Part shown: positions 8,539 to 20,999 of the stretch, one piece after another | Position numbering within the stretch: position 1 is the stretch's first letter | Layout of the letters: every line of letters begins with the position of its first letter | DNA from: a bacterium | Lineage (GTDB): Bacteria > UBP18 > UBA7526 | Direction: 5' to 3' | NCBI GenBank assembly: GCA_030619985.1 | Contig: JAUXAI010000010.1 | Coordinates: forward strand, 1-27,844 | DNA: 27,844 nt | Translations under genes and position numbers: made by a program | The notes under the pieces: generated by a model | Told to the model about the DNA's origin: nothing | Databases searched by the model: none | What the model saw: only the letters and a program-made list of their open reading frames with translations

Positions 8539-10998
<2,460 letters not shown>

Positions 10999-14498: not shown

Positions 14499-14528
14499 TC
14501 CGCTAGAGGCGGATCCGCCTTCGGCGGA
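14499..14528. repeat. 30-bp tandem double-hairpin flanked by 8-bp direct repeats
   Basis: Within the hisA-hisI gap, two adjacent stems share the core: TCCGC-(5 nt)-GCGGA and TCCGCC-TTC-GGCGGA, with an overlapping 14-bp palindrome AGGCGGATCCGCCT (14507-14520). The block is bordered by GATAAGTT on both sides (14491-14498, 14529-14536), as if inserted into a tandem array with duplication of one unit. Confidence 0.7.
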
Positions 14529-14555: not shown

Positions 14556-14618
14556 AGAAATTGGGAATTAAGAATTGGAAATTGAGTCCAGATAACCGAT
14601 CACTGTTCACCGATTACC
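14556..14618. repeat. 7-bp tandem array, 9 units, overlapping the hisA 3' end
   Basis: Nine 7-bp units in exact register. The first four are of the type GGGAATT/GGAAATT, and the last four of the type GATAACC, GATCACT, GTTCACC, GATTACC. The hisA stop (14607-14609) and its last codons are inside the array. The GATCACT-type units recur inside prmC at 19504-19575. Confidence 0.85.
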
Positions 14619-15332
14619 TATTTCAATGGCTTTTTCTAAATCTATTCTGCCTGTATAGAGGGCCTTACCCATGATGACCCCGAATAGGCCTTTCTTTTCC
14701 AGGAGCTTTAATCTCTTTATGTCTTCTAAGGAAGAGATTCCACCAGAGACTATCAAGGGAATATCTATTGCCTTTAACATCTTCTTGATCTGAGAGATAT
14801 TGGGACCTTTTAAAGTTCCATCCCTCTTTATATCGGTAAAGATAATACTTTTTACTCCTAATTTTGCCATCTCCTTGGCTAAGATAGGGGCAGTCTTTCT
14901 GGTTTTCTTCTCCCATCCCCGGACTCTAACCTTTAGATTAGAGGCATCGATGCTCACCATTATCCTTTTTCCGAATCTCTTTATTGCTCTTTTAACGAAT
15001 TCTGGTTTGGAGATGGCAGTAGTTCCTAAGATCACATATTCCACACCACAATCCAGAACCTCTCTGATGGTCTTTAGACTTCTTACTCCGCCCCCAAACT
15101 GGATGGGTATCTTAACACTTTTAGCAATTCTTTTGACTATTTTTAGGTTCTGGGGTTCTCCTTCAAAGGCTCCATCCAAATCAACGATATGTAGTTTCTT
15201 CGCTCCCTTTAGTTCCCACAATTCGGCTACAGCAACGGGCTCTCTTGAGTAAACCCTCTCAGAGGACAGTTTCCCTTGTCTGAGTCTAACGCACCTTCCC
15301 TCAATGAGATCGATGGCTGGAATGATAAGCAT
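14607..15332 (-). CDS. hisA: ProFAR isomerase (HisA)
   Basis: 241 residues, ATG with AGGA in a recurrent leader. It is an Amadori isomerase converting ProFAR to PRFAR. Motifs: IPAIDLIEGRCVRLRQG with the catalytic Asp (7-8 region), HIVDLDGAFEG, IQFGGGVRS (phosphate binding), VILGTTAISKPE, VSIDASNLKVRVRGW, FTDIKRDGTLKGPN with the second catalytic Asp, and LIVSGGISSLEDI. trpF is separately present, so this need not be a dual-function PriA. HisH and HisF, which use the product, are not in the window. Confidence 0.96.
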   Translation of the reverse strand: MLIIPAIDLIEGRCVRLRQGKLSSERVYSREPVAVAELWELKGAKKLHIVDLDGAFEGEPQNLKIVKRIAKSVKIPIQFGGGVRSLKTIREVLDCGVEYVILGTTAISKPEFVKRAIKRFGKRIMVSIDASNLKVRVRGWEKKTRKTAPILAKEMAKLGVKSIIFTDIKRDGTLKGPNISQIKKMLKAIDIPLIVSGGISSLEDIKRLKLLEKKGLFGVIMGKALYTGRIDLEKAIEIGNR

Positions 15333-17420: not shown

Positions 17421-17488
17421 TATCCTCTCACTTTCTCACCTGCTCACCTACTCACTATCCTACTTTCTTACTTTCTTACTTTCCTACT
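17421..17488. repeat. 8-bp tandem array filling the murA-hisD gap
   Basis: Four clean 8-bp units of the type TTCTTACT (17457-17488) lead into more degenerate units of the type CTCACCTA. The murA TAG (17484-17486) is inside the first unit in transcription direction, and the array ends in the hisD SD, so it makes up the whole gap. Confidence 0.82.
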
Positions 17489-18803
17489 GTTTAACCCTCT
17501 CTATCTTTGCTCCTAAATTGGAAAGTTTTTCTACAATCCTCTCATATCCCCGGTCCAGGTGATAGATACGAGAGATCTCTGTCTTTCCCTCAGCAACCAG
17601 GCCAGCTAAGATAAGGGCCGCAGAGGCCCTCAGGTCAGTAGCCATGACCGGTGCCCCACTCAGGGACTTTGCCCCTTTTACTACGGCGCTCGATCCCTCA
17701 ATCTTAATATCTGCTCCCATTCTTAAAAGTTCTGAAACGTGCATGAACCTATTTTCAAACACCGTCTCGGTAATAATGCTTATTCCCGGGGTAATGCTCA
17801 TAAGGGCCATGAACTGGGCCTGCATGTCTGTGGGGAAACCAGGATAGGGCATGGTTTTGACATCTACGGCTTTGATTCTTCTTCTTGCTTTTACTTTAAT
17901 CACTCTTTCTCTCCGCCTCATCGGTGGACCAGCCGATGCCTCTTCGGCATCCACCGTAGAAGTGGAAGAGGCTGGCTCATCCTCAATCTCTACTCCCGCC
18001 TCATGGAGTTTAGTAATCAGGGATTCCAAGTGATCAATCTTGGCGCCCTCTAAGATAATATCTCCTTTGGTAATGGCAGCGGCGATGATATAGGTTCCGG
18101 CCTCGATCCTATCCGGGATGATAGAGTAATCTGTTCCCTTCAGTTCCTTTACCCCGATAGTCCTGATGGTGTCTGTTCCCGCTCCCTTAATCTTTGCTCC
18201 CATCTTATTTAGGAAGTTGGCCAGATCCACAATCTCTGGCTCTTTTGCCGCATTCTCTATAGTTGTCTTTCCCTTAGCCAGGGTAGCAGCCATCATGAGA
18301 TTCTCTGTCGCCCCCACAGAGGGAAAGTCCAAGTAGATTTCAGCACCGATCAGTCCATCCCTCTTCACCTGGGTATAACCACCCCCCATACTCACCTCTG
18401 CTCCTAACTCTTCAAATCCCCTCAGATGTAGGTCTACGGGACGGGAGCCGATGGCACATCCTCCAGGCAGAGAGACCCTCGCTTTTCCCAACTTTGCCAA
18501 AAGAGGTCCGAAGACCAGGAAGGAAGCCCTCATGGTCTTCACCAGATTATAGGGAGCGAGGAAGCGATCGACATTGGTAGTATCGATCTTTAACTCTTTT
18601 TCCCTGAATTCTACCTTGGCCCCCAGGGTTCTTAATACCCGGGCCATGGTGGTAACATCCTTAAGACGGGGGATATTCGATAGAGTAGTTACTCCATTGG
18701 TCAATAAGGTAGCGGCCATGATGGGAAGGGCGGCATTCTTTGAACCACTTATTCCCACTCTACCCTTTAGTCTCTCTCCACCAGTGATGATGATCTTCTC
18801 CAC
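17484..18803 (-). CDS. murA: UDP-N-acetylglucosamine 1-carboxyvinyltransferase with in-frame palindromic insert
   Basis: 439 residues, GTG start in a recurrent GGAGTGAGGAA leader. It transfers enolpyruvate from PEP to UDP-GlcNAc, the first committed peptidoglycan step. Motifs: [17 protein letters not shown] (18-34), the active-site Cys116 in [17 protein letters not shown] (so the fosfomycin-target Cys is present), DRIEAGTYI, and [17 protein letters not shown]. Between VEIED and RVIKVKARR lies an extra segment of about 22 residues (275-298, rich in Ser, Ala, Glu) not expected in the family. It is encoded by a hairpin-forming palindrome. The usual length is about 415-420 residues. All catalytic residues are intact, so it is probably functional. 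Confidence 0.96.
17910..17978. repeat. In-frame palindromic insert within murA
   Basis: The core hairpin is GATGCC-TCTTC-GGCATC (17935-17951), inside outer arms CGGTGGA (17922-17928) and TCCACCG (17950-17956). It encodes residues about 276-298 of MurA, which lie in a region where family members have only a short turn. Confidence 0.65.
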
Positions 18804-18955: not shown

Positions 18956-19876
18956 CTACTGTCTTTGGGCGATGATGACTCGTTCTATTTTAGAATAATC
19001 CTTAACAATTTCTATAGATTCAAACTCTAAGGTCTTTTTAACCATTTCTTTTACTTGGGAAGATTGATCTATTCCTAACTCCAGAATTAAGTAGCCTCTG
19101 CCCGCCCCGCACCGAACTTGTTCTGGTGCGGGGGACTTTAAATATAGGTGCGCTTCCTCTATTATTCTTCTATAAAAGAAAAGCCCATCCTCTTTTCCAT
19201 CCAAGGCGATGCGCGGTTCATAATTTGCTACCTCAGGCATCAAGGAATTGATCTCTCTTCTTATAACATAGGGAGGATTGGAGACTAAAAAGTCTATCTT
19301 CCCTTCCAAGTAATAATTTTCCCAAGGAGAGAAGAGGTCGCCTTCTAAAAAGGTAATCCTATCCTCTACTCTGTGCCTTATGGCGTTTTCTTTCGCTACC
19401 TCTAAAGCCTTTTTAGAGATGTCCACAGCATATATCCTGGAGTTTTGGATATGCCTTGCTAAGGTAATTGCGATATTCCCACAGCCCGTTCCTAAATCTA
19501 TGACAGTGATCGGTGAACGCCCGCCAAAGGCGAGGTCTCGCCCCTCTGGGGCGGAGTGATCAGTGATCGGTAATCTTTCCAAGACTGCGTCCACAATAAA
19601 TTCTGTCTCTGGACGAGGGATGAAGGTATCTGAAGTAACTCTAAACTCTAAAGAATAGAATTCCTTCTTTCCCGTAATGTAAGCTAAGGGCAGATGAGCC
19701 TTTCTCTTCTCTATTGCTTCTTCCAAAAGATTCAGTTCATAATGGGTTAAACCGCGATCTGGATTCAAGTAAATATCCCGTCTCACAAGGCCTAAGCAAG
19801 ACTTGAGGAGTAACTCAGCCTCTAAGAAATTCCCCAGATCTCGATGGGCTTGACAAAAAGCTTCTCTTATCTTCAA
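18956..19876 (-). CDS. prmC: Release factor glutamine methyltransferase with two in-frame repeat inserts
   Basis: PrmC methylates the Gln of the GGQ motif in release factors; its target prfA is just upstream. I chose the TTG at 19876 (AAGGAG seven bases upstream), giving 306 residues. A longer frame to 19939 adds only array-derived codons overlapping prfA. Motifs: LPLAYITGKKEFY, FIPRPETE, SAM-binding VIDLGTGCGNIAI (about 125-137), and the catalytic NPPY (200-203) followed by EPRIALDG. Two segments are foreign to the family. Residues 103-123, between ERLP and TVIDLG, are encoded by 7-bp array units plus two hairpins. Residues 248-259, between YLK and GYLILELG, are encoded by a GC-rich palindrome. 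Both keep the frame and avoid the catalytic site. Confidence 0.94.
   Translation of the reverse strand: MKIREAFCQAHRDLGNFLEAELLLKSCLGLVRRDIYLNPDRGLTHYELNLLEEAIEKRKAHLPLAYITGKKEFYSLEFRVTSDTFIPRPETEFIVDAVLERLPITDHSAPEGRDLAFGGRSPITVIDLGTGCGNIAITLARHIQNSRIYAVDISKKALEVAKENAIRHRVEDRITFLEGDLFSPWENYYLEGKIDFLVSNPPYVIRREINSLMPEVANYEPRIALDGKEDGLFFYRRIIEEAHLYLKSPAPEQVRCGAGRGYLILELGIDQSSQVKEMVKKTLEFESIEIVKDYSKIERVIIAQRQ
19097..19135. repeat. GC-rich palindrome inserted in frame in prmC (3' insert)
   Basis: CCCCGCACC (19105-19113) pairs with GGTGCGGGG (19125-19133), with inner GAAC/GTTC and a one-base bulge. It encodes about 12 residues (SPAPEQVRCGAG) at the place where the family has only a Pro-Gly turn between the last helix and the GYLILE strand. 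Confidence 0.65.
19504..19575. repeat. Array-plus-hairpin block inserted in frame in prmC (5' insert)
   Basis: On the minus strand, 7-bp units GATTACC, GATCACT, GATCACT lead into two hairpins, CGCCCC-AGA-GGGGCG and CGCC-TTT-GGCG. Units GTTCACC and GATCACT follow. The same 7-bp units lie in the hisA 3' array at 14591-14618, and the double-hairpin-inside-array layout equals that of 14499-14528. Confidence 0.75.
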
Positions 19877-19925
19877 ATCTCTGCTCCTTGTTTTCTCTGC
19901 GTCTCCTGCGGTTTTATTTTGCGCC
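19877..19925. repeat. Roughly 9-bp degenerate array, prfA-prmC junction
   Basis: On the minus strand units such as ACCGCAGAA, GGCGCAAAA and AGGAGACGC span the prfA 3' end and the prmC leader. The last PrfA residues (TAEGAK) and its TAA are array sequence, and the array ends at the prmC AAGGAG. The start closely matches the hisD 3' end (TGCAACCGYAGA). Confidence 0.65.
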
Positions 19926-20999
19926 TTCTGCGGTTGCAATCCTCTCCAACTTCTTTATCTGATCCTCTGATTGTAACCTCTGAATCAGTTCTTCTATCTC
20001 TCCTTCTAAGATGGTATCCAATTTATGAAGGGTAAGGTTGATGCGATGGTCGGTTACCCGTCCCTGAGGGAAGTTATAGGTTCTGATGCGCTCACTTCTA
20101 TCCCCAGTTCCAATCTGAATCTTCCTCTCTTGGGCCCTCTTCTTAATCTGCTCTTGAGTGAAGTGATCAAAGAGTCGAGCATAAAGAATCTTCAAGGCCT
20201 TGGCCTTATTCTTATGCTGGGACCTTTCATCCTGGCAAGTAGCGACTATCTTGGTAGGAAGATGGGTGATCCTCACTGCAGAGTCGGTGACATTGACATG
20301 TTGTCCTCCAGCGCCAGTTGCCCGGAAGGTATCAATCTGTAGATATTCTGGTTTAATTTGAACATCTATAGGCTCTGCTTCGGGTAGTACGGCCACCGTT
20401 GCTGCCGAGGTGTGAATCCTTCCTCCGGCCTCAGTGATCGGCACTCTCTGAACCCGATGGGTCCCACTCTCATACTTGAATCTACTATATACCTTCTCCC
20501 CTTCTACAGAGAAGATGATCTCTTTAAAGCCTCCCACCTCTCCGGGATGGGCGCTTAGGATATTTATCTTCCACCCCTTCCTTTGGGCATACTTAGAGTA
20601 CATACGGAAAAGGTCCCCAACAAAAAGAGCGGCCTCATTTCCCCCGGTGCCCGCTCTTACTTCCATGATGGTATTTTTTTCATCGTTGGGATCGGGAGGA
20701 ATTAAGAGAAGCCTCAGTTCTCTCTCCAGGGTCTCCTTCTCTTTCGATAACTTGTCGAGTTCTGCCCTTGCTAGAGCCTTGAATTCTAAATCCTTTTCCA
20801 AGGTATAGAGCTCCTGGGCCTCATCCATCTGCCTGATTACCTTCTCATATCTTTGGTATTTCTTCACCAGGGGTTCTATCTGGGAGCGCTCCTTGGCCAA
20901 CTTCTGATATTTTACTCGGTCAGCAACGATTTCTGGATCGGAGAGGAGTCTTCCCAGGTCCCGGAATCTTTTTTCAAGATCAGCTAATTTCTCTAACAT
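19914..20999 (-). CDS. prfA: Peptide chain release factor 1
   Basis: 361 residues, normal for RF1. It ends translation at UAA and UAG. The peptidyl-hydrolysis motif [20 protein letters not shown] is intact, in RATGAGGQ. The stop-recognition tripeptide region [19 protein letters not shown] has P-I-T where RF1 usually has P-A-T or P-V-T. The N-terminal coiled coil (20-110) is present. The ATG overlaps the DUF1385 stop by 20 bp. The C-terminal ATAEGAK is encoded by intergenic array sequence that the gene reads into. Confidence 0.96.

Follow-up and report, generated by a model that had tools for sequence, protein, structure and literature searches.

Rickettsia palindromic elements are small dispersed palindromes, many of which lie in frame in unrelated conserved genes and are seemingly translated (PMC10969869). 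REP and REPIN sequences are palindromes of 20-40 bp, often found as inverted doublets, and some of them occupy flexible parts of genes (PMC3733652, PMC3116915). Tandem 7-bp units have been reported as TAACTGA in Beggiatoaceae and cyanobacteria (PMC4679880) and as the heptanucleotide elements of Geobacter (PMC2700814), in both cases at many sites, some of them in ORFs; in the Maribeggiatoa genome the in-ORF repeats are mostly at protein ends (PMC4679880). SDR5 of Nostoc is a very small module inserted precisely within another repeat, the HIP1 site (PMC4390886), and the in-ORF tandem repeats of Borgs are fast-evolving, form disordered segments, have units whose length is always a multiple of three and which are seldom shared (PMC9879509).

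The window analysed here, a DNA stretch of 27,844 nucleotides, corresponds to contig 27 in a draft genome of 1.25 Mb (G000) that was compared with five relatives of the same family (G001-G005); the six genomes are 53-93% complete, and the comparison with the congener G002 covers 385 kb, about 27% of that genome. Its prmC gene carries in frame a 7-bp array split by a 36-bp double hairpin. Like Rickettsia palindromic elements, the 36-bp family is dispersed (34 copies), lies in frame in unrelated conserved genes and has an empty site in the prmC of G001; a preliminary description of the window had named those elements as the precedent, and they fit, being palindromes in frame in conserved genes. 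Going by their description (about 150 bp, with a conserved peptide), it is set apart from them by its length of 36 bp, the several frames used and its position inside tandem arrays. As a doublet of two hairpins the 36-mer resembles REP and REPIN sequences, but it has no constant GTAG or CGTC tag, no RAYT was found in the six genomes, and it resides in 7- and 8-bp arrays whose phase it keeps. Unlike a MITE, it shows no target-site duplication in prmC when set against the empty site. The tandem 7-bp units at many sites (135 lag-7 arrays in this genome) recall the TAACTGA-type heptamer repeats, whereas here, unlike in Maribeggiatoa, they are dense within conserved enzymes, come in many unit types and turn over at fixed sites. 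Nostoc SDR5, also a small module nested in another repeat, though in another phylum, is likened by this nesting and not by sequence; it is reportedly associated with heptameric repeats. With Borg repeats the arrays share their tandem organisation within ORFs, but their 7- or 8-bp units are drawn from a shared set. The array type had been thought undescribed, which overlooked heptamer arrays (PMC4679880, PMC2700814) and intragenic REPs (PMC3733652) in the literature. Judged from a limited literature search, the ingredients are individually known, while the nesting, the phase-keeping residence, the turnover of units at a given site and the density within core genes look new.

The in-frame block of prmC

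The features of the gene are as follows.

18956-19939, reverse strand: prmC, peptide chain release factor N5-glutamine methyltransferase (NCBIfam TIGR03534), the host gene
19505-19575, reverse strand: composite in-frame insert within prmC, five degenerate 7-bp units split by a 36-bp double hairpin
19556-19575, reverse strand: 5′ heptads GATTACC GATCACT GATCAC, same letters in G001
19520-19555, reverse strand: 36-bp double-hairpin element TCCGCCCCAGAGGGGCGAGACCTCGCCTTTGGCGGG, read as SAPEGRDLAFGG, not at the orthologous site of G001 or G002-G005
19505-19519, reverse strand: 3′ heptads (C)GTTCACC GATCACT, same letters in G001
19100-19135, reverse strand: second hairpin insert in prmC (TCCCCCGCACCAGAACAAGTTCGGTGCGGGGCGGGC), 11 extra residues relative to G002

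The product scores 256.8 bits against TIGR03534 (cut-off 199.1; equivalog score), and the TTG at 19939 probably lies upstream of the true start of the gene. An array with a double hairpin had been described in frame inside prmC, and it is indeed present at 19505-19575. Read on the coding strand from 19575 to 19505, the block is GATTACC GATCACT GATCAC + TCCGCCCCAGAGGGGCGAGACCTCGCCTTTGGCGGG + C GTTCACC GATCACT and encodes LPITDHSAPEGRDLAFGGRSPITV, flanked by ER and VIDLGTG. After removal of the hairpin pair, 22 of 28 lag-7 comparisons within the remaining 35 bp of heptads are matches, a value reached by none of 100,000 shuffles, and a chance origin of the block is excluded because copies of its 36-bp part occur elsewhere. 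The 36-mer folds into two hairpins (-11.5 kcal/mol, z -3.05, DNA parameters). The surplus of PrmC, put at about 16 residues in the preliminary description, comes to 15 residues at the block position in a phmmer alignment with Thermotoga maritima HemK/PrmC. A conserved linker of the same length was not seen in distant PrmC proteins; in unrelated PrmCs the linker is short and variable, which rules out an ordinary long PrmC linker.

PrmC retains every residue that is invariant among 29 homologues, and its dN/dS against the same-genus genome G001 is 0.25; this value and the intact motifs rule out a pseudogene. In an AlphaFold2 model (mean pLDDT 93) the insert is a loop between helix 92-103 and strand 126-131, and its residues 111-120 have a pLDDT of about 53. 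The model thus indicates a confident and intact fold in which the insert is predicted as a disordered or floppy loop. Together the reading frame, the dN/dS, the intact catalytic residues and the confident fold indicate that the block is a translated and tolerated insert. The second hairpin insert of prmC (fold z -4.16) reads PAPEQVRCGAG and is unrelated to the 36-bp element; its 12-mer type AAGGTGCGGGGT occurs 55 times in the genome, 12 of them in CDSs.

At the orthologous site G001 has GATTACC GATCACT GATCAC|C GTTCACC GATCACT, identical but exactly 36 bp shorter. G002 has five AATTACC units of equal length without the hairpin, in G004 and G005 GATCCTTG/GATCCTGG units precede CCAGCAT units, and the G003 site is degenerate. 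Since the 36-bp site is empty in G001 and other units stand in G002, the array predates the genus and the hairpin pair was added in the G000 lineage. The alternative, that the other lineages precisely lost the hairpin, would need more events. The block had been thought to enter as one 72-bp piece, which does not agree with G001, where the same five heptads are found and only the 36-bp hairpin pair is lacking; the array is older. For the same reason the expectation that the block be absent from sister prmC genes and present elsewhere holds for the hairpin, absent in G001-G005 and with 15 element copies in this genome, but not for the heptads, which G001 has.

Three other features of the window may be noted here.

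17907-17978, reverse strand: palindromic 22-residue insert in a murA-like gene (17484-18803) adjoining prmC, not in the congener G002
14499-14528, forward strand: 30-bp double hairpin TCCGCTAGAGGCGGATCCGCCTTCGGCGGA within an 8-bp array, whose phase is regained on removing the 30 bp
14591-14618, forward strand: heptad array of the GATCACT type, whose bases form the final codons and the stop of hisA (ORF 14607-15332)

Units of the prmC type at the end of hisA had been reported and are there as listed. A double hairpin within an array at 14499-14528 had been reported as well and is present, but TCCGCTAGAGGCGGATCCGCCTTCGGCGGA is related to and different from the 36-bp element (30 against 36 bp). 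The Rfam scan of the window gave three tRNAs and no other RNA family, so a known RNA family is ruled out as the identity of the element. The purA frame (8543-9922, reverse strand) has no stop before the next gene and crosses a tRNA gene (8566-8638, reverse strand); this read-through adds a tail of 23 protein letters.

The 36-bp element and its residence in arrays

Fifteen strong copies of the 36-bp element are present in this genome and 19 more across G001, G002, G004 and G005, which gives 34 in five genomes, with no copy in G003. An 84-base search of 54 other genomes returned nothing comparable, and the exact core was not found in IMG/VR, an absence by which a viral origin is ruled out. Ten copies are internal to conserved genes, as confirmed by family models, in nine genes with valS counted twice.

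G000: prmC, asnB, valS
G001: kdtA
G002: rsmE, hypF
G004: murF, valS, lolD, nadC

An eleventh in-gene copy forms the C-terminus of a radical-SAM gene. Among the in-gene copies each of the three forward frames is used, as is the reverse strand, and therefore no particular peptide is being conserved. In nadC, two array sites are filled in both genera with differing units (G004, L325:819-1778, against G000, L229:1-888), the fillings being FRLQASGFRLQ versus KMQNAKCKMQN and HRSPVTGYRSP versus RLSSIVRRPSL; the G004 gene also has the 36-bp element. The same loop of LolD (G004, L312:173-1015; G000, L182:5210-5926) holds the heptad array KVQSPKSNVQSH in one genus and the 36-bp element in the other.

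The inner sequence of the element is nearly constant and its flanks are tandem arrays of many kinds, which include the unlike GATCACC, GGTTACT, GCGTTTC and GCATTTT types and 8-bp AATCCCC types. We cut n bases from a fixed left end in 24 copies and scored the array phase across the junction. Phase matches were 60% at n = 36 and 48% at 43 (= 36+7), and 22-28% at other n from 30 to 42; a few single copies, whose flanks are weak or degenerate, show no peak of their own at 36. The peak at 36 therefore places the element within arrays, with their phase preserved and no visible target duplication. No target-site duplication is seen in prmC against the empty site of G001, though elsewhere a duplication of one array period would escape notice. 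Left ends vary among copies (CGTCC in some, else ACTCC, TTGTCC or TTCCTCC), a variation of the tag that rules out a CGTC-tagged REP. The RAYT-type Y1 transposase family PF01797 had no match in any of the six family genomes, which are incomplete (53-93%), with positive controls, so that mobilisation by a RAYT is not supported.

From these results we consider it likely that the prmC block is a translated, tolerated insert that arose in two steps, and that arrays in permissive loops are landing sites for small palindromic elements. In the first step, before the genus split, an exposed PrmC loop immediately ahead of the first strand in the methyltransferase domain would have come to be encoded by a 7-bp array. 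In the second, a 36-bp double hairpin would have settled within that array, only in the G000 lineage, and lengthened the gene by exactly 12 codons. The dispersed element lodges within 7- and 8-bp arrays with the phase kept and no target duplication left. It has no stop codon in any frame, and therefore arrays in permissive protein loops would be safe landing sites within genes. As read from sequence comparison, both steps, the array residence with its phase, the many in-gene copies and the frame constraint are documented, and we infer that the element is selfish or neutral.

The manner of its spread admits a second reading, in which the element has no mobility of its own and is spread by template switching or gene conversion between arrays through the short homology of flanking units. 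We regard this as well possible, though short of an even chance. The element is always inside arrays with the phase kept and without target duplication, it seems always to face the same way with respect to the unit of a given array type, and no RAYT is found; as regards the missing duplication and the fixed orientation, copying between arrays fits as well as insertion. Against it, the element occurs in arrays of unlike units with little common homology, and in prmC the flanking units remain those of the recipient, leaving a few bases of junction homology. Such recipient-type flanks offer little homology for conversion, and are still compatible with template switching.

Tandem arrays inside conserved genes

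A lag scan of the genome gave 284 arrays, 135 with a period of 7 and 108 with a period of 8 (six are runs of N), and the same scan gave no arrays in Markov controls. By CDS calls from a simple hexamer script, 172 of the 284 are intergenic and 83 lie inside CDSs. The view of this array type as mainly intergenic is at odds with these 83 arrays of all types and with the 12-mer ATCACCGATCAC, of which 19 out of 24 occurrences are in coding sequence. Yet the underlying idea, that a conserved gene carries, in frame and very probably in translated form, repeat DNA also known from between genes, is borne out. Within ORFs of at least 150 residues there are 61 arrays per Mb in this genome and 75 per Mb in G002, compared with 2.8 per Mb in other bacteria (708 kb, 75 loci). 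All six family genomes contain the GATCACY type, as do 3 of 284 other genomes. Small repeats of other kinds also occur in G000: ATCTGTGCTAAT / ATCTGCGGTCAT, with 31-40 copies, mostly intergenic, and the hairpins AACCCCGCCCCT and CTGTCTGCCGAC, some of them in CDSs.

Array hosts supported by family models include enolase, UvrA, IleS, LeuS, TrmD, FolC, riboflavin synthase, D-Ala-D-Ala ligase, KsgA and DapF. Relative to solved homologues the arrays add about 16 residues in KsgA, about 20 in TrmD and about 5 in enolase, whereas in RibE, DapF and IleS they fall on a native loop with little or no gain in length. Simple insertion gives no account of this overwriting of native loops in IleS, RibE and DapF.

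Twenty-five in-gene arrays have a readable G002 orthologue, and in 15 of these the same site holds an array in both species, with a chance expectation of about 0.6% each. The unit is unrelated in 8 of the 15 (2-4 of 7 positions by the best rotation, or another period), as in enolase, where GGGTTAA in one species faces ATTACCA in the other, and the proteins with swapped units are still 70-93% identical. Ten of the 17 heptamer types in G002 genes are also found in G000 genes (0.36 expected). Within this one species pair, covering about 27% of G002, the pattern looks like that of one unit library differently assigned to the same slots. It is conceivable, and we propose it tentatively, that loop sites of essential genes are standing array slots in which the site and often the length persist while the arrays are swapped wholesale from a genome-wide library, with the double hairpins using the arrays as landing pads.

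Short tandem repeats usually arise by slippage, and the in-gene arrays could have grown locally from the sequence at each site, with no traffic between sites. Unit number does vary between congeners (by 7 residues in uvrA), and Borg repeats are thought to arise locally (PMC9879509). We nevertheless find such an origin unlikely, as units recur in unrelated genes (ACCGATC eight times, besides the heptamers common to both species), the same site often holds unrelated units in G000 and G002, and the shared 36-bp element is left unexplained. Also improbable is a functional role in which the arrays and hairpins are binding sites of a translational or DNA-binding regulator, although regulatory roles have been proposed for the upstream heptamers of Beggiatoaceae (PMC4679880) and the repeats of Geobacter (PMC2700814) and the array sites are kept from one species to another: the units at a given site differ, dozens of unit types exist, the 36-bp element is read in several frames, and the hosts are unrelated enzymes.

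Probable translation of the inserts

In-frame insertions of at least 7 residues between G000 and a congener number 31, of which 13 are hairpin-like and 8 array-like (about 0.6 expected of each), as called at p<=0.02 against random coding segments. Frame-breaking differences between orthologues are rare: about 200 genes gave eight candidates, several of which lie at gene ends. When an in-gene array has one stop-free strand, that strand is the one read in 29 of 33 cases, which partly follows from the requirement for an open frame. Removal of the insert at the RNA level, or its skipping by the ribosome as in an intron or a mitochondrial byp element, is therefore hardly credible even for a hairpin-rich insert in conserved genes, the inserts being in frame, free of stops and read on the open strand. 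As the frame is kept, ribosomal bypass and splicing were both set aside, and the insert is most simply read as translated rather than removed. In one G002 gene (L294:15469-16954, orthologue of G000 C42:15143-16546) an array of AACTCAA units stands where the frame breaks relative to G000, and this gene is possibly damaged.

Significance

The two-step reading of prmC implies that repeat DNA of a noncoding type has turned into part of the sequence of essential enzymes, and sister species show such sites empty or filled otherwise. This makes testable how tiny palindromes spread without a known transposase, and why tandem arrays are their sites. It also yields a catalogue of loop sites tolerant of rewriting in universal proteins (enolase, IleS, LeuS, ValS, UvrA, TrmD, FolC, KsgA and others). 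For such lineages it is a warning as well, since indel-based phylogeny, gene calling and family models can mislead. If standing slots and swapped arrays prove true, they would amount to a new process by which protein loops are rewritten by repeat DNA.
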